From Candidatus Thermoflexus tengchongensis (GTDB taxonomy: Bacteria; Chloroflexota; Anaerolineae; Thermoflexales; Thermoflexaceae): 39,475 nucleotides of DNA. The stretch's first letter is position 1. Each line of letters begins with the position of its first letter. Where the stretch lies: positions 1-39,475 of the forward strand of contig JAEVEX010000024.1 in assembly GCA_016842085.1 (NCBI GenBank), written 5' to 3'. Shown here piece after piece: positions 30,143 to 39,475 of this stretch. Under the pieces are notes generated by a model. The model was not told the origin of the DNA. It searched no databases and was given only the letters and a program-made list of their open reading frames with translations. The translations under genes and the position numbers were made by a program.

Positions 30143-30169
30143 CGCGTGGCTGATCGAAAGGGGGCTGCG

Positions 30170-33100
30170 ATGGGTTCAAAACCTCAACGCCTGCGAAAGG
30201 TCTGGGGGATCCTGATCCTCCTGCTTCTCCTCGACGCCTGCCGTCCCACCCCTACCCCTACGCCCACGCCGGTGGTCTCCAAACTGCCCCCCATCCTGGT
30301 CGCCCGCACGCCGGAGCCCGGGCAGGAAGTAACCCCCGAGATGCCCCTGCGCCTCGTGTTCAGCGAGCCGATGGATCGGGCTTCCGTGGAGGCCAACCTG
30401 CGGGTGATCCCGGCGGTCGCCGGACGCTTTGCCTGGGAGGCCGGAGATCGCATCCTCCGTTTCCTCCCTCAGGCCCCATGGAAGCCCGACACGGAATATG
30501 AGGTCCGTCTGGAGAACGCGCGGGCGCGTAACGGCCAGGGCCTGGCCCGACCGGTGGCCTTCCGCTTCCGCACCGCCTCCCCCCTCACCGTGGTCGAGGT
30601 GATCCCGGCCCCGGACGCCCGGGATGTGGATCCCCAGGCCTCCGTGACGGTGATCTTCAACCGGCCGGTGGTCCCCCTGCGCAGCGATCTCGCCCCTGGG
30701 GATCTCCCGCAGCCCCTGGTCTTCGATCCGCCGGTCCGGGGGACCGGCCGCTGGATCAACACCAGCATCTATTCGTTCCAGCCGGAGGGCTCATGGGCGG
30801 CCGGGCGCACCTACACGGCCCGCGTGGTCGCTGGCCTCCGGGATCTCACCGGGGTGACGCTGGAGAAGGATTACACGTGGACCTTCACCATCCGCCGCCC
30901 GGCGGTGATCGCCTACGCCCCCCGGCCCGGCCGGCAGATGGATATGGATCTGAGCGCGCCCATCTCCATTACGTTCAACATGGAAATGGATCGGGCCTCT
31001 GTCGAATCTGCCTTCTCTTTGCGGGAGGGTGCCGAGGATGGCCCGACGGTTCCGGGGCGTTTTGAATGGATCAGCCAGACGGTGCTCTTCCGGCCGGCCC
31101 AGCCCCTGAAACTGGAAACCCGCTACTTTGTCCGTCTGGAACAGCGGGCCGCGGCCCCCTCCGGGGCCACCCTCGAGGGAGCGGTGGCCTGGGCCTTTAC
31201 CACCCCCGCCTATCCCCGTCTGCAGAGCGCCAGCCTCAGCCCGCAAGGCCCCAACCGCGTGGATCCGGAGGATTCCATCGAGCTTCGCTTCACCTCCGGT
31301 GCTATCCGCCCGGAGACCATCTGGCCCAATCTCCGTTTCGAACCGCCGATCTCCGTGACCCGGGTGTTTACAAACTGGGATCCGGAGTACGGCGTTTTCA
31401 CCCTCTCCGGGTCCTGGCAGCCGGGAACGGTTTACACGCTGACAGTTGGCCCGGAGATCATGGATCGTTATGGCAACCGGCTGGACCGCCAGCATACGTT
31501 CACCTTCACGGTCAACCATCTGGATCCCGTCGCCTATCTGAACATCGGCAGCCCCTACTCTCCGCTGGTGGTGGTGGGGACTTACACGGAGACGACCGCT
31601 TTCCTCTCCACACGCAATCTCGATCGGGTGACCTTCACCCTATCGCGGCTGGAGCTGGAGCGCTTCATCGCCCTGAGCCAGGATCCAGAGGCGACCTTCC
31701 GTTACAGCGCGCCGAATGCCGATCTGGTCGCCCGGTGGACGTTCACCGTGCCGGAGGTGATCACCGATGTCATCATGCTGAACCGCGTTTCCCTGGCCGG
31801 CCCCGACCGTCGTATCCTTCCCACCGGGCTCTATCACCTTCGAATGGATGCCCCGGTCTCCCTGGAGCATCGGCCGGGCCGCTACCTGCTGGCCGCGGTG
31901 GATCTCAATGTGGTGGTGAAGGTGGCCCCCCAGGAGGCCCTGGTCTGGGTCACGGATATGGCCACCGGCCGCCCGGTTCAGGGAGTTCCCGTTCGGCTGT
32001 TCGAAGCCACCGAGGAACACGTGGAGATCTGGGGGGTTCGCGCCACGGATGCGAGCGGGATCGCCCGCTTCGAGTGGTCGGACCCGGTTCCTCTCTGGCG
32101 GATGCGGGTGGCGGTGGCCGGAACCCCCGGCAGCCGCTTCGGGATCGGCGCCAGCGCCTGGTCCGATGGCGTCGAGCCCTGGGCCTTCGATCTTCCGGCG
32201 GACTATGAGCCCCCTCGCTTCCGGGTCTACTGGCAGACCGACAAGCCCATCTACCGCCCGGGCCAGACCGTGCATTTCAAGGCCATCGTGCGCGCCGATG
32301 ACGACGCCCGCTATGCCCCGCCGTCCGATCGGACCTTCGCCATCCGGATCGAGGATCCAGAGGGCCGCGAGGTTTACTCCGCTACCCTGACGTTAAACGA
32401 CTTCGGGACAGCGGAAGGGGCTTTCCCGCTGGCGGAGGATGCGATGCTCGGCCGCTACACCCTGATGGCCGATCTCCCGCCCGGGCTTTACTACCACTCG
32501 ATTTCCTTCCTGGTGGCCGCCTACCGCCGACCGGAGTTCCAGGTGACCCTCACGCCGGAGCGCCCGGCCTATGTGGCCGGCGAGCGCATCCGGGCGGCGC
32601 TCCAGGCCACCTACTATTTCGGAGGGCCGGTGGCGGGGGCGAAGGTGGAATGGACCGCTCGCGTCCAGCCCTATTTCTTCGAATACACCGGGCCGGGGTA
32701 TTACTCCTGGTCCGATTTCGATCCTTACAGCGCCTATGAGGGGGAAGGCGAGGAGGTCATCGCCAGCGGAAGCGGAACTACCGATGCCCAGGGACGGTTC
32801 CTGATCGAGCTTCCCGCCGATCTGGGGGCCCGCCCCGGGAGCCGGCGGGTGATCCTGGAAGCCAGCGTGACCGACCCCAACGACAACCTGGTAGCCGGAC
32901 GAACCGAGGTGGTGGTCCACGCGGGGCGTTTTTACATCGGGCTGCAGGCGGAGCACTATGTGGGGGAGGCCGGCCGCCCGCTCACGATGACGGCGAAAAC
33001 GGTGGATTGGGAGAGCCGGCCGGTGGGCAACATCGCACTGACCTGGACCGCGTATCGCCGCGAGTGGTTCAGCGTGATGCAGGAGACGGACCGCGGGCCG

Positions 33101-33901
33101 ATGTGGACCTGGACTTACAGCGATACCGCGGTGATGAGCGGCACGCTCCAGACGAATGCGGAAGGTATGGGACGCTTTGCGTTCACCCCGCCGGATCCGG
33201 GGACCTATGTCGTGAAAGCGGAAGGGACGGATGCCGAAGGCCATCGGATTCGGAGCGCGGAATTCGTCTGGGTATCCGGGCGGGGGGTGGTGGCGTGGCG
33301 TCAGGAGAACAACGATCGGATCGAGCTGGTTGCTGATCGTCGGGAATACGCGCCGGGCGATACGGCCACCATCCTGGTTCCCTCCCCCTTTACCGGAACG
33401 GTAACCGCCCTGATCACTGTGGAGCGCGGGAGGATCCGACGGGCAGAGGTGCACACTTTACAGGGCAACGCGCCCACGGTAGCCATCCCGCTCTCCGAGG
33501 AGGACGCGCCCAACGTCTTCGTCTCGGTCCTCCTGATCCAGGGGGTCACCCGGGAGAACCCGGCACCGGGCTTCAAGATGGGGATGGTGAACCTCCCGGT
33601 GAAGCCGACGCGACAGACCCTCCACATCGAGCTGATCCCATCGGGATGTGGCGGCCGGTGCCCATTATGGACCCCGGGAGACCATGACGGTCACCGTTCG
33701 CACCACGGACGCGGAGGGCCGGCCGGTCCCGGCGGAGGTGGCCGTGGCGGTGGTGGATGCCTCGGTGCTGGCCCTGGTGGATCCGAACGCCCCGCCCATC
33801 ATGGAGGGATTCTACGGCCGGCGCAACCTCTCCGTCCTCACCGGCGTCTCCCTGATCTACAACCTGAACCGGGTGACGGTGCGTATCGCCCGGGAGCGTA
33901 A
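30170..33901 (+). CDS. Bacterial alpha-2-macroglobulin lipoprotein, N-terminal part (frameshifted)
   Basis: A lipoprotein signal (ILILLLLLDAC) and short TP linker lead into four Ig-like Big_5 domains, each with the 'RLVFSEPMDRASVEANL'-type motif. MG2 (WQTDKPIYRPGQTVHFKAI) and further macroglobulin domains follow. Such proteins trap proteases at the cell surface. The sequence is sound up to about 33640. After LHIELIPSG the frame turns into Gly/His-rich nonsense and stops at 33901, while the correct continuation lies in the +1 frame from 33648. The start is ATG 30170, with AAGGGGG; the GTG at 30146 is less likely. The gene is broken by one base, or the base is a sequencing error. Confidence 0.88.
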   Translation: MGSKPQRLRKVWGILILLLLLDACRPTPTPTPTPVVSKLPPILVARTPEPGQEVTPEMPLRLVFSEPMDRASVEANLRVIPAVAGRFAWEAGDRILRFLPQAPWKPDTEYEVRLENARARNGQGLARPVAFRFRTASPLTVVEVIPAPDARDVDPQASVTVIFNRPVVPLRSDLAPGDLPQPLVFDPPVRGTGRWINTSIYSFQPEGSWAAGRTYTARVVAGLRDLTGVTLEKDYTWTFTIRRPAVIAYAPRPGRQMDMDLSAPISITFNMEMDRASVESAFSLREGAEDGPTVPGRFEWISQTVLFRPAQPLKLETRYFVRLEQRAAAPSGATLEGAVAWAFTTPAYPRLQSASLSPQGPNRVDPEDSIELRFTSGAIRPETIWPNLRFEPPISVTRVFTNWDPEYGVFTLSGSWQPGTVYTLTVGPEIMDRYGNRLDRQHTFTFTVNHLDPVAYLNIGSPYSPLVVVGTYTETTAFLSTRNLDRVTFTLSRLELERFIALSQDPEATFRYSAPNADLVARWTFTVPEVITDVIMLNRVSLAGPDRRILPTGLYHLRMDAPVSLEHRPGRYLLAAVDLNVVVKVAPQEALVWVTDMATGRPVQGVPVRLFEATEEHVEIWGVRATDASGIARFEWSDPVPLWRMRVAVAGTPGSRFGIGASAWSDGVEPWAFDLPADYEPPRFRVYWQTDKPIYRPGQTVHFKAIVRADDDARYAPPSDRTFAIRIEDPEGREVYSATLTLNDFGTAEGAFPLAEDAMLGRYTLMADLPPGLYYHSISFLVAAYRRPEFQVTLTPERPAYVAGERIRAALQATYYFGGPVAGAKVEWTARVQPYFFEYTGPGYYSWSDFDPYSAYEGEGEEVIASGSGTTDAQGRFLIELPADLGARPGSRRVILEASVTDPNDNLVAGRTEVVVHAGRFYIGLQAEHYVGEAGRPLTMTAKTVDWESRPVGNIALTWTAYRREWFSVMQETDRGPMWTWTYSDTAVMSGTLQTNAEGMGRFAFTPPDPGTYVVKAEGTDAEGHRIRSAEFVWVSGRGVVAWRQENNDRIELVADRREYAPGDTATILVPSPFTGTVTALITVERGRIRRAEVHTLQGNAPTVAIPLSEEDAPNVFVSVLLIQGVTRENPAPGFKMGMVNLPVKPTRQTLHIELIPSGCGGRCPLWTPGDHDGHRSHHGRGGPAGPGGGGRGGGGCLGAGPGGSERPAHHGGILRPAQPLRPHRRLPDLQPEPGDGAYRPGA

Positions 33902-36113
33902 GGGCGGTGGCGGTGGCGTCGCCGAGGCTTTCGGGGAGATCCGGCGGGAATTCCCGGACACCGCCTACTGGAACGCGGTCCTGCGGACCGATGCGAACGG
34001 GACGGCGGTCTTCTCCGTGCGCCTGCCGGATAACCTCACCACCTGGCGCATCACCGCGAAGGGGGTGACCCAGGATACCCGTGTCGGCGAGGCCATGCTG
34101 GACGTCATCAGCACCAAAGATCTCCTGATCCGTCCCAGCGTCCCGCGGTTCTTTGTGGCCGGCGATCGCGTGACCCTGGGCGCGGCGGTCCATAACCAGA
34201 CCGGGCGTTCCCTCCCGGTGACGGTGCGCCTGGAGGCGAAAGGGTTCACCCTGGAAAGCCCGGCCGTTCAGGAGGGAACGATTCCCCCGGGTGGCATGGC
34301 CCGCTTCGAGTGGACCGGGGTGGTGGGGCGGGTGGAGGCCGTGGATCTCACATTCTACGCCGAGGGCGGCGGCCTTCGGGATGCCACCAAACCCACCTTA
34401 GCCCGGCCGGATGGCACCATCCCGGTGCTGCGCTATGTGAGCCTGGAGACCGTGGCAGCCGCCGGGATGCTGGAAACCCCGGAGCCCCGGCAGGAGATCG
34501 TGGCCATCCCGCCGGAGCCGGAGGTCACTGGCGGAACCCTCATTCTTCGGCTCTCCCCATCCCTGGCCGCGACGGCCCTGGACAGCCTGACATGGCTTCA
34601 GCACTTTGAGTATGAATGCACCGAGCAGACCATCAGCCGCTTCCTGCCCAACATCGCCACCTATCAGGCCCTTCTCCGTCTGAACCTGGCCCGTCCGGAT
34701 CTGGAGGAGCACCTCCGGCAGCAGATCGCGGTTGGCCTGCAGAAACTGTATGCCGGCCAGCACGCTGACGGCGGGTGGGGATGGTTCCCGTCCATGGAAA
34801 GTGACCCCCTGACCACCGCTTACGCGGTCTTCGCCCTGGCCCAGGCGCGGGCCAGCGGGTTCGCGGTGGCCGACGGCGTCATCGAGCGCGGCGTTGCGTT
34901 CCTGCGCCGATCCCTGGAGGCGCCCGCGGATCTGCCCTCGTGGAAGGCCAACCGGCAGGCGTTCATGCTCTTCGCGATGGCCGAGGCCGGTGCCGGGGAT
35001 GCCGGCCGGATCGTTGCGCTGTGGGAGGCCCAGAAGGAGCATCTCGCCCTTTACGCCCGCGCCTTCCTGGCGATGGCCCTCGGTCGCGTCCAGGCGGATC
35101 ACCCGCTGATCCCCACATTGCGGAACAGCGTGCTCGAGCAGGCCAGCGTGACCGCGACCGGCGCCTTCTGGGAAGAGAAAGGCCTGGACGATTTCAACTG
35201 GAGCACCGATACCCGGACCTCGGCCATCGCCCTGCTCAGCCTGCTGCGCCTGGACCCGAAGAACCCGCTGGCCTTCCAGGCCGTGCGGGGGCTGATGGCG
35301 GCGCGCCGGGCGGACCGGTGGGAGACCACCCAGGAGACGGCATGGGCGCTGATGGCCCTCACGGAGTGGATGGTCCAGAGCGGGGAGCTGGAAGGGAATT
35401 ACACGTGGACGGTTCGCCTGAACGATCAGGTCATGGGGTCCGGTTCCGTGGATCCAGCGCACCTTCAGGAGACCGTGACCCTGCAGCAGGACATCGCCGG
35501 GCTGTTGCGGGAGGTCGGGAACGCCCTGGAGCTTTCCCGGAGCGTCGGGCCCGGTGTGCTGTATTACACCATCCATCTAGCCCTGGAGGAGCCGGTGGAG
35601 CGGATCGCCCCGCGCTCCCGGGGCCTGACCCTGAGCCGCCAGTATCTGCGGCTGGACGATCCGTGCCTGAAGGATCGGCGGCAGGCGTGCACCCCGGTGA
35701 CCTCGGCCCGGGTGGGGGACCTCCTGGTGGTGCGCCTGACCTTGGTGGTTCCGCGTACGGTGCACCATCTGGTGCTGGAGGATCCGTATCCGGCGGGGAT
35801 GGAGGCCATCGATCCCTCGCTGAAGACATCGCCGATGGCGGGGCGGCCGCCGGAGCTGCAGCGGGTCGATCCACGGGATCCCTTTGGCGGGTATGGCTGG
35901 TGGGGCTGGTGGTGGTTCGGGCATACGGCGCTCTATGACGATCGGGCGGCCCTGTTCGCCGAGTATCTCCCGCCGGGGACCTATGAATACACGTATATGA
36001 TCCGGGCGGGCTGGGCCGGGCGGTTCCAGACGCGCCCCGCGCGGGCCTATGCCTTCTACTTCCCGGAGATCTACGGGCAGAGCGAAGGCATGCGGTTCGA
36101 GATCACCCGGTAA
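33648..36113 (+). CDS. Bacterial alpha-2-macroglobulin, C-terminal part with thioester motif (frameshifted)
   Basis: This frame continues the macroglobulin: YGPRETMTVTVRTTDAEGRP, then the A2M domain DTAYWNAVLRTDANGTAVF and LPDNLTTWRITAKGVTQDTR. The thioester domain follows, with FEYECTEQTISRFLPN (CTEQ at codons 34617-34628, the C-x-E-Q thioester), then GGWGWFPS and the terpenoid-cyclase-like helical repeats, and a C-terminal receptor-like domain. The thioester would bond covalently to an attacking protease. The apparent GTG start at 33648 is simply the first codon after the shift and has no ribosome-binding site. Read together, 30170-36113 would encode about 1980 aa, a normal size for long bacterial homologues. 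Confidence 0.88.
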   Translation: MAAGAHYGPRETMTVTVRTTDAEGRPVPAEVAVAVVDASVLALVDPNAPPIMEGFYGRRNLSVLTGVSLIYNLNRVTVRIARERKGGGGGVAEAFGEIRREFPDTAYWNAVLRTDANGTAVFSVRLPDNLTTWRITAKGVTQDTRVGEAMLDVISTKDLLIRPSVPRFFVAGDRVTLGAAVHNQTGRSLPVTVRLEAKGFTLESPAVQEGTIPPGGMARFEWTGVVGRVEAVDLTFYAEGGGLRDATKPTLARPDGTIPVLRYVSLETVAAAGMLETPEPRQEIVAIPPEPEVTGGTLILRLSPSLAATALDSLTWLQHFEYECTEQTISRFLPNIATYQALLRLNLARPDLEEHLRQQIAVGLQKLYAGQHADGGWGWFPSMESDPLTTAYAVFALAQARASGFAVADGVIERGVAFLRRSLEAPADLPSWKANRQAFMLFAMAEAGAGDAGRIVALWEAQKEHLALYARAFLAMALGRVQADHPLIPTLRNSVLEQASVTATGAFWEEKGLDDFNWSTDTRTSAIALLSLLRLDPKNPLAFQAVRGLMAARRADRWETTQETAWALMALTEWMVQSGELEGNYTWTVRLNDQVMGSGSVDPAHLQETVTLQQDIAGLLREVGNALELSRSVGPGVLYYTIHLALEEPVERIAPRSRGLTLSRQYLRLDDPCLKDRRQACTPVTSARVGDLLVVRLTLVVPRTVHHLVLEDPYPAGMEAIDPSLKTSPMAGRPPELQRVDPRDPFGGYGWWGWWWFGHTALYDDRAALFAEYLPPGTYEYTYMIRAGWAGRFQTRPARAYAFYFPEIYGQSEGMRFEITR

Positions 36114-36129: not shown

Positions 36130-36813
36130 GTCGAATGAATTCGACCTCCGAGGCCTTCGGCCGATGGCCGGCGTGGGCGTCGAATGAATTCGACCTCTGA
36201 GGCCTTCGGCCGATGGCTGGCGTGGGCGTCGAATGAATTCGACCTCGAGAGGCCTTCGGCCGGTGGCCGGCGTGGGCGTCGAATGAATTCGACCTCGAGA
36301 GGCCTCCGGCCGATGGCCGGCCTTCGCCGGCCGAAAGGATTTTTGCGTCGGCGGAGGCCGACGCGCGGCGCGGGAGGGCGTCGAATGAATTCGACCTCTG
36401 AGGCCTCCGGCCGATGGCCGGCCTTCGCCGGCCGAAGGGCTTTTCCCGTCGGCGGAGGCCGACGTCTGGCGCGTAAGCGCCACGCGAGGCCGATTTCTAA
36501 TCGGCGCGAAAGGCCGACGCCTGCGCGCGGGGGCGTCGAATGAATTCGACCTCAAGAGGCCTTCGGCCGATCGGCCGGCCTTCGCCGGCCGGAGGGCTTT
36601 TCCCGTCGGCGGAGGCCGACGCCAGGCGCGTAAGCGCCTCGCGAGGCCGATTTCCAATCGGCACGATAAGCGATGGCCGGCGTGAGCGTCGAATGAATTC
36701 GACCTCTGAGGCCTCCGGCCGATCGGCCGGCCTTCGCCGGCCGGAATGTTTTCGCGTCGGCGGAGGCCGACGTCTGGCGCGTAAGCGCCTCGGGAGGCGA
36801 TCTCAATCGCCGC
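36130..36813. repeat. Nested array of hairpin repeats, seven units headed by GTCGAATGAATTCGAC
   Basis: GTCGAATGAATTCGAC recurs at 36130, 36179, 36228, 36278, 36380, 36535 and 36688. Unit lengths are 49, 49, 50, 102, 155, 153 and about 126 bp. The first three units contain the header plus a GGCC-rich stem. The fourth adds GGCCGGC/GCCGGCC and GTCGGC-GGAG-GCCGAC stems. The fifth to seventh also add GGCGC-GTAA-GCGCC and GCCGATT/AATCGGC stems. Every module can fold into a hairpin, and the last stem changes on both sides in the final unit (GGCGAT/ATCGCC). The array lies between the macroglobulin and the next secreted protein, has no credible gene, and carries no unique spacers. Confidence 0.9.
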
Positions 36814-36867
36814 GATGCACGCCCCCCCCGAAGCGGTTCCCCGATGGTCCCTGGACCCCTACCTCGC

Positions 36868-38493: not shown

Positions 38494-39354
38494 TCACCTG
38501 GGGGACTTCCTTCTTCGAGGCGAAACAGACAGAACGGAGGATTTCAAGGCTTTCCATAAACGATGGAAGACGACGCGATAGCACCTGAGGCAATGAAGGC
38601 GATAAAGGAACGGGAGCTCGATGGTCGCAACGATGGCGCCTTCCCGGAGGCGGTCGGCCGCTCGCTGGAGGAGCAGGGCCAGGAGGGCCAGGAGCAGGAT
38701 CCCTCCGGCGCGGGGGAGGAGGGGGAAAACGGGCCGGGATTCCAGCGATCGCTCCACGAACGCCTGCGCGAGGGTGAGCCCCAGGAAGGCCCCGGCGGCC
38801 AGGCTTGCCCACGCCAGGCCCCGAAGCCATGGCCCGATCCGCCGCATCCAGGCGGGCGCGGGCGGGGGCTCCAGGGGATCCCGCCACGGGGAAGCGGCCG
38901 CCCTCAGCGCGGCCTCGCGCTCCAGGATCGCGGCGAGCAGGTCTGCATGCCCATTCTCGATCGCTACCCTTCGCAGATGAGCGAGCTGGCGAAGGAGCGA
39001 GCGACGCGGAGCTGGATCCTGGGGAGGATGAATGCGTTTCAGAACTGCCGCCAGGGCCTCGACGGCCGCCCGGCGCACCCACCGGACCTCATCCTTCAAG
39101 GCCTCGGTGAGGGCGGGGAGGGCCTGGGGGCCGCCGATCTTCCCCAGGGCCTCGGCGGCCGCCCGGCGCACCTCCGAGTCCTTATCCTTCAAGGCCTCGA
39201 TGAGGGCGGGGAGGGCCTGGGGGCCGATCTCCCTCAGGGCCCCGGCGGCCACCTCGCGCACCCCCGAGTCCTTATCCTTCAAGGCCTCGATGAGGGCGGG
39301 GAGGGCCTGGGGATCGCCGATCTTCCCCAGGGCCTCGGCGGCCGCCCGGCGCAC
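38494..39354 (-). CDS. HEAT-repeat membrane protein, part downstream of an in-frame stop
   Basis: This 286-aa frame opens at GTG 39354 in the middle of a HEAT/PBS-lyase-type repeat block. Units of about 31 residues have the consensus DPQALPALIEALKDKDSGVR. A linker, two membrane segments (LAWASLAAGAFLGLTLAQAF and GGILLLALLALLLQ) and a basic C-terminal tail follow. HEAT repeats bind other proteins, so this looks like a membrane-anchored scaffold with repeats on one side. The reading frame continues upstream into 39361-39475 except for one TAG codon at 39358-39360. No ribosome-binding site precedes 39354, so this is probably the C-terminal part of a broken gene. Confidence 0.75.
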   Translation of the reverse strand: MRRAAAEALGKIGDPQALPALIEALKDKDSGVREVAAGALREIGPQALPALIEALKDKDSEVRRAAAEALGKIGGPQALPALTEALKDEVRWVRRAAVEALAAVLKRIHPPQDPAPRRSLLRQLAHLRRVAIENGHADLLAAILEREAALRAAASPWRDPLEPPPAPAWMRRIGPWLRGLAWASLAAGAFLGLTLAQAFVERSLESRPVFPLLPRAGGILLLALLALLLQRAADRLREGAIVATIELPFLYRLHCLRCYRVVFHRLWKALKSSVLSVSPRRRKSPR

Positions 39355-39475
39355 CCCCTAGTCCTCATCCTGCAAGGCCTCGAGGAGGGCGAGGAGGGCC
39401 TGGGGGTCGCCGATCTCCCCCAGGGCCCCGGCGGCCGCCTTGCGCACCCACGAGACCTTATCCTGCAAGGCCTCG
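39355..39475 (-). pseudogene. Upstream part of the HEAT-repeat gene, interrupted by TAG and cut by the window end
   Basis: Translated in frame with the downstream piece, this encodes LGEIGDPQALLALLEALQDE, then D, then a TAG at 39358-39360, then GVRRAAAEALGK. At the same place in the neighbouring repeats the codon is TCG (Ser), as in KDKDSGVR, so one base change (C to A) explains the stop. The repeat DNA runs off the window edge, so the real start is not visible. Confidence 0.65.

Follow-up and report, generated by a model that had tools for sequence, protein, structure and literature searches.

The hairpin array at positions 36130 to about 36815 of the window, by which we mean the whole analysed stretch of 39,475 nucleotides from Candidatus Thermoflexus tengchongensis, is probably one tandem cluster of a non-autonomous element that is dispersed over the genome, whose unit of ~125 bp consists of six hairpin modules (A-F), and which would be the DNA partner of a Y1 HUH transposase (TnpA) of the IS200/IS605 type. 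Units of this kind are dispersed, keep their module order, covary in their stems and form polar arrays; arrays and TnpA lie together in several taxa, and array sites are occupied in some sister species and empty in others. Since the same repeat surrounds TnpA in sister species and in other Chloroflexota, it is most likely the mobile, tandem-growing substrate of that enzyme.

Modular Architecture of the Window Array

Seven exact copies of the head GTCGAATGAATTCGAC were found in the window, starting at 36130, 36179, 36228, 36278, 36380, 36535 and 36688, with head-to-head spacings of 49, 49, 50, 102, 155 and 153 bp and a final unit of ~128 bp that ends at about 36811-36815; these are the units and sizes of the original prediction, which had put the last one at ~126 bp. 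The units are built from hairpin modules in the invariant order A-B-C-D-E-F: the head hairpin A (GTCGAA-TGAA-TTCGAC), B (GGCC-TTC-GGCC), C (GGCCGGC-CTTC-GCCGGCC), D (CGTCGGC-GGAG-GCCGACG), E (GGCGC-GTAA-GCGCC) and F (GCCGATT-TCT-AATCGGC). All lie on the plus strand. Unit 1 (36130..36178, 49 bp) contains head A (36130-36145), hairpin B (36152-36162), the 5' arm of C and a GTGGGC junction, and units 2 (36179..36227, 49 bp) and 3 (36228..36277, 50 bp) likewise hold A, B and the C 5' arm. The 102-bp unit 4 (36278..36379) adds complete C (36315-36332) and D (36346-36363) and runs into E, of which it keeps the 5' arm. The 153-155 bp units add E and F: unit 5 (36380..36534, 155 bp) is a full A-B-C-D-E-F with F at 36488-36505, followed by a D/E remnant and a junction, while unit 6 (36535..36687, 153 bp) is a full A-F with F at 36645-36662, followed by a C 5' arm and a GTGAGC junction. 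The stepwise gain of modules along the array is therefore as originally described. So is the altered stem of the last unit (unit 7, 36688..36815), which comprises full A-E and a variant F at 36796-36811 (GGCGATCTCAATCGCC), where GGCGAT/ATCGCC replaces GCCGATT/AATCGGC and the arms remain paired. We also agree that this is neither a CRISPR array, a simple satellite nor coding DNA; in place of the identical repeats and unique spacers of a CRISPR array, the inter-head sequence here consists of shared modules.

The array follows the C-terminal part of a bacterial alpha-2-macroglobulin gene (33648..36113, plus strand), with 16 bp between its stop codon and the first head, and the gene pair around the array is syntenic in sister species that have no array there. 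The placement next to surface genes to which the original prediction drew attention looks incidental, because arrays adjoin many other kinds of genes.

Dispersed Copies and Variable Sites within the Genus

A genome-wide pattern search, of the kind proposed with the original prediction, detected 82 exact heads in the source genome (46 on the plus and 36 on the minus strand, in ~30 dispersed clusters) and no match to the reversed head pattern used as a control; together with the folding z-scores given below, this speaks against a chance pattern. Exact heads were also present in four sister genomes, with 26 in G003, 26 in G004, 6 in G006 and 46 in Candidatus Thermoflexus japonica HRbin22 (G008); the same search of the genus genomes found none in G001, Thermoflexus SKYG36 (G002), G005 or G007, and outside the genus a single isolated match was evident among 51 genomes of the same class. 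The distribution of the F module mirrors that of the head, except for five matches in SKYG36. Overall, the repeat copy number per genome ranges from 4 to more than 200. Near-identical units at the end of contig C80 and the start of contig C88 indicate that the assembly of the source genome is broken by arrays. A scan of the unit against Rfam gave no match at the gathering score, no report of these repeats was found in the open-licence literature, and transposons and insertion sequences are not mentioned in the Thermoflexus genome paper.

G004 has two types of head side by side, GTCGAA..TTCGAC and GCCGAA..TTCGGC, and its head count rises to 120 once the second type is also counted. Among the 100 matches listed for this genome, the second head pair is T-A in 26, C-G in 67 and other in 7, and the T-A type is enriched in the 5'-most unit (12/25, compared to 13/62 of later units; Fisher p = 0.018).

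The occupied sites differ between species. At the window site, japonica HRbin22 (94% identical upstream) carries a different array, in which two heads are accompanied by two headless units. The same gene pair is present in G003, G004 and G006, separated by a short intergenic gap without an array, and these empty sites bear other terminator-like hairpins. Five further arrays of the source genome (L025, L027, L029, L034 and L038) are missing at the aligned sites of japonica HRbin22. Comparisons of joined flanks made insertions and absences visible, with hairpins bordering the element; because the intergenic flanks are too diverged, no base-exact empty site was found by this approach in japonica HRbin22, G001, SKYG36 or G005, nor for the element of SKYG36 itself.

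Folding and Covariation of the Units

To the covariation analysis we submitted an alignment of 13 units, seven from Thermoflexus (GTCGAA/GCCGAA type) and six from other taxa. In this alignment 94% of the cells were paired, compared to 85% after shuffling and 18-43% in slid controls, a percentage biased toward the window unit that served as the reference structure. Sixteen of the 39 base pairs had changed on both sides, compared to seven in shuffles and one to six in slid controls. The covariation score was 0.285, with 0.113 for shuffled alignments (as high in 0/500) and at most 0.060 for slid ones. The comparison with shuffles is inflated by shared ancestry; the two-sided changes between genera are independent of these biases.

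Folded as single-stranded DNA, the units gave z-scores of -4.3 to -6.9; for the 155-bp unit, z was -3.7 as RNA and -6.9 for the hairpin part as DNA. We scored G-T against A-C mispairs in modules A, C, D and F and obtained 13:16 for A, 35:26 for C, 56:52 for D and 29:10 for F. As the two kinds of mispair are about equally frequent in A, C and D, there is no sign of one strand acting as RNA in these modules.

Polarity and Genomic Setting of the Arrays

Array statistics were drawn from 48 arrays with at least two heads. Their units run head-to-tail in one orientation, and head-to-head distances peak near 50, 103 and 153 bp. The growth seen in the window array holds as a general rule, the arrays being polar, with short units at the 5' side and a complete last unit: 45 of the 117 internal units are truncated, compared to only two of the 48 final units that are without F, and the shortest internal unit stands first in 24/32 arrays (13.4 expected; as high in 0/5000 shuffles). 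Truncation points consist of the 5' arm of a hairpin, then G-rich sequence before the next head; the foot immediately before that head follows a weak G[RC]GY consensus in the source genome and a looser one in G004 and japonica HRbin22.

In 28 of 62 arrays a co-directional stop codon lies at most 40 bp from the head end, whereas the tail end meets a convergent stop in only nine of the 62 (binomial p ~0.003); these counts stem from crude gene calling, and some calls are wrong, including that for the gene upstream of the window array (stop at 36113). In several arrays a TGA within the head itself serves as the gene stop. No lagging-strand orientation bias was seen in the G004 arrays by GC-skew sampling.

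A scheme of nested insertion, in which a new unit enters a hairpin loop and displaces the remainder to the 3' side, was considered for array growth and rejected: arrays that carry headless (C)DEF tails agree with it, but the window array, with four truncated units and no such tail, does not.

The Associated Transposase

A scan of the genus with the Pfam Y1_Tnp model gave strong matches in japonica HRbin22, G004 and SKYG36, each with one tnpA per genome, nested in an array and oriented as the array is. In SKYG36, two units with the head GCCGACTAAAGTCGTC lie on either side of the gene, and only four copies of that head exist in the genome, which is a founder-like state. The G004 TnpA is 82% identical to that of SKYG36 and 77% to that of japonica HRbin22. 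The head sequence does not strictly track this distance: the G004 TnpA is closer to that of SKYG36, yet the G004 head is that of japonica HRbin22.

The original prediction had pointed to a REP-associated tyrosine transposase. A Y1 transposase is indeed associated with the repeats, but it fits the IS200/IS605 model (NF033573, 58-67 bits with a cut-off of 55; PF01797 is also matched) and stays below the cut-off of the RAYT model (NF047646, 25-27 bits with a cut-off of 80). When homologues outside Thermoflexus are included, most TnpAs are above the IS200/IS605 cut-off, and PDB matches include the ISHp608 TnpA. The motifs DHxH (x = L, T or V), WQ and Y---Q--HH recur across eight TnpA loci, although DHxH was not found in the frame of L111. 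On these motifs, TnpA carries the signature of TnpA_Y1 subclass 1.2, for which DH[IV]H, WQ and Y---Q--HH have been described (Quentin et al., 2018, PMC6006769). No tnpB was noticed next to tnpA in the loci read.

Neither the Pfam scan nor a protein search with a threshold of E<=10 found a cognate tnpA in the source genome, where the gene was either lost or is hidden within assembly gaps; in G003 arrays are likewise present and tnpA was not found. The two Y1 genes of the source genome (L039 and L040) were considered as the mobiliser and rejected, both being of RAYT type with no heads within the flanks examined. L040 (contig C97) is flanked by a second hairpin family, GGAGTGCGGTGCC...GGCACCGC, which also occurs at L164 and interrupts the array at L016; the japonica HRbin22 site orthologous to the L025 array holds the same family.

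Related Loci in Other Chloroflexota

Scanning GTDB species genomes for TnpA yielded eight loci. Homologues of 64-82% identity are flanked by A-F units at L108 and L111 (Anaerolineae), L109 (Thermoflexales) and L112 (Chloroflexi, groundwater). At all four, the 5' flank is an A-(B)-C-D-E-F unit that stops immediately ahead of the start codon, and copies comprising D-E-F or more lie 3' of tnpA. The stems of these units differ nearly everywhere from those of Thermoflexus, with head stems GCCGACT/AGTCAGC, GGCGACT/AGTCGCC and GCTGACT/AGTCAGC, C stems AGGACGGC/GCCGTCCT or GCGTCTGC/GCAGACGC, a D stem GCGTCAAC/GTTGACGC and an F stem GGCGATT/AATCGCC. Genome-wide, F has 234 matches in the L108 genome and 22 in the L109 genome, and in both the dispersed units keep the A-F order, some with extra hairpins inserted. 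Such hairpins (TTCACTTCGTTCGC, GGGGCAACC..GGTTGCCCC), observed in units at L196, L202 and L195 of these two genomes, point to the gain of modules as a general feature.

At L113 and L114, which represent more distant TnpA relatives, the flanking hairpins are inverted (TIR-type) and do not form direct unit arrays; the tip of L113 has GACTGAAGTC, which is common to the heads of L108 and L111.

Proposed Mechanism and Alternative Explanations

We infer that TnpA acts on the units by a single-strand route. The folded single strand, above all head hairpin A, would be recognised by TnpA, which would cut at the 5' foot of the head (the weak GNGY consensus); the head-to-head segment could then be moved as single-stranded DNA and joined either at another head, so that the array grows head-to-tail, or at a fresh site, frequently right behind a stop codon. 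Head-to-tail arrays would result from insertion at heads because any head could act as a start. The arm of hairpin C or E may serve as an alternative right end, giving the quanta of 50 and 103 bp, and the shortened units, ending after C or E, would pile up on the 5' side. The complete unit might be left over where two unit copies lack the gene between them, and selection against gene damage could leave the surviving insertions at gene ends. IS608-type transposition predicts a lagging-strand bias, whereas the G004 arrays show none, and tandem growth by itself could stem from recombination or slippage. Further points against mobilisation by TnpA are the arrays of the source genome and G003, where no tnpA was found, the failure of the flank comparisons to yield a base-exact empty site, and head sequences that do not strictly track TnpA distance.

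The setting of the arrays could also suggest that they are 3' UTR structures kept by the host, such as terminators or mRNA-stabilising hairpins, which are spread by recombination and are linked to the transposase only secondarily. The excess of co-directional stops at the head end, the arrays that supply the gene's stop through the head TGA, the other terminator-like hairpins at the empty sites and the skew of F mispairs to G-T all fit such a role. However, the wobble in A, C and D is symmetric and gives no sign of selection on an RNA strand, array sites differ among sister species, copy number varies widely between genomes, and the nesting of TnpA in arrays of several genera would go unexplained; we therefore regard this explanation as unlikely. 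Much the same wobble argues against a unit that works as RNA, in an array of structured small RNAs or ribonucleoproteins: its stable multi-hairpin fold, strong covariation and conserved module order would suit such a function, but given that G-U excess is absent from A, C and D, that Rfam offers no match and that units are freely truncated, we consider it very improbable.

Passive selfish repeats could likewise be amplified when replication slips or switches templates at hairpins, with quasipalindrome correction making the paired changes and no dedicated enzyme involved. Tandem arrays and quantised deletions that end at hairpin arms are in line with this, inverted arms favour template switching, and no tnpA was found in the source genome. 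It is nevertheless hard to credit, as transposition is needed to reach ~30 unlinked sites, genera with very different stems retain the module order and the pairing, and co-location with TnpA is recurrent.

Mobilisation by TnpA remains our preferred explanation, and to it may be added a bolder and more doubtful proposal: that a conserved fold of several hairpins, in DNA (or RNA), serves the subclass 1.2 TnpA systems of Chloroflexota as a functional scaffold beyond the terminal recognition hairpins, and that a dedicated route makes their arrays grow with 5' polarity. As the A-F order is kept across genera while the stems turn over, the whole fold may contribute to transposition or serve the host, but we offer this only tentatively.

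Relation to Known Systems

The original description of the array as a composite REP/BIME-like element holds for its dispersed, multi-copy nature, but not for its arrangement, since Thermoflexus arrays run head-to-tail without the alternating or inverted pairing of BIMEs and REPINs. As in REPtrons, where REP/BIME sequences accompany a RAYT (TnpA_REP), the palindromes are dispersed and mostly intergenic, one Y1 HUH gene per genome lies amid its repeats, and orphan repeats occur where the gene is missing. The gene flanked by high-copy dispersed repeats is seen in japonica HRbin22, G004 and the L108 genome, whereas SKYG36 has four copies only. The unit differs in having up to six hairpins (~125 bp) and in the absence of the GTAG/GT[AG]G tag of REP sequences at the 5' foot, which reads G[RC]GY in the source genome and is looser in G004 and japonica HRbin22, and the Thermoflexus TnpA falls outside the RAYT enzyme model.

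The match to the TnpA model, the HUH and Tyr motifs and, in the loci read, a tnpA next to which no tnpB was noticed are shared with IS200/IS605 elements (IS200, IS608, ISDra2) and their non-autonomous derivatives, and the hairpins that border the unit may correspond to their hairpin ends. Here, though, tnpA sits within arrays of direct repeats, a genome can hold more than 80 non-autonomous units and the unit is multi-hairpin. Enzymes of TnpA_Y1 subclass 1.2 have been described as low-copy, without REP and generally without IS200 terminal structures, and as hosted mostly by Cyanobacteria or Bacteroidetes (Quentin et al., 2018, PMC6006769); their substrate is not known from that study, as neither IS ends nor REP sequences were reported. 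The proteins described here resemble them in DHxH, WQ, Y---Q--HH, a length of ~148 aa and low gene copy, and differ in their abundant repeats and Chloroflexota hosts. Class 3 enzymes are marked by NHVH and YV[VI]xEQ and by a foot that reads CnGA (PMC6006769), and the motifs described here differ from these. TIRtrons, mobilised by TIRYT (Di Nocera et al., 2013, PMC3733652), resemble the inverted hairpin ends of the sister TnpAs at L113 and L114, a possible evolutionary link, but the Thermoflexus units are direct and not inverted.

The best reading is therefore a REPtron-like working of an IS200/IS605-type protein with the subclass 1.2 signature, its abundant repeats standing against the published description, and the multi-hairpin tandem repeat, its most likely substrate, is of a kind not reported for these enzymes. 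High-copy multi-hairpin units with an order conserved across Chloroflexota thus become a candidate substrate for TnpA_Y1 subclass 1.2, and such units would also account for repeat-driven assembly breaks in Thermoflexus genomes. This makes testable the REP-like dispersal of repeats by an IS200-type enzyme, the formation of polar tandem arrays, and the question why multi-hairpin order outlasts stem sequences.

Other Features of the Window

Coding sequence resembling alpha-2-macroglobulin spans 30146-36113 and is divided between two ORFs that overlap in different frames, the first with the Big_5/MG2/bait region and the second with A2M/TED/MG10, a split that reflects a frameshift, either genuine or an assembly error. 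On the minus strand at 39051-39475, 93-bp tandem repeats lie at least partly within a HEAT-repeat ORF and look ordinary.
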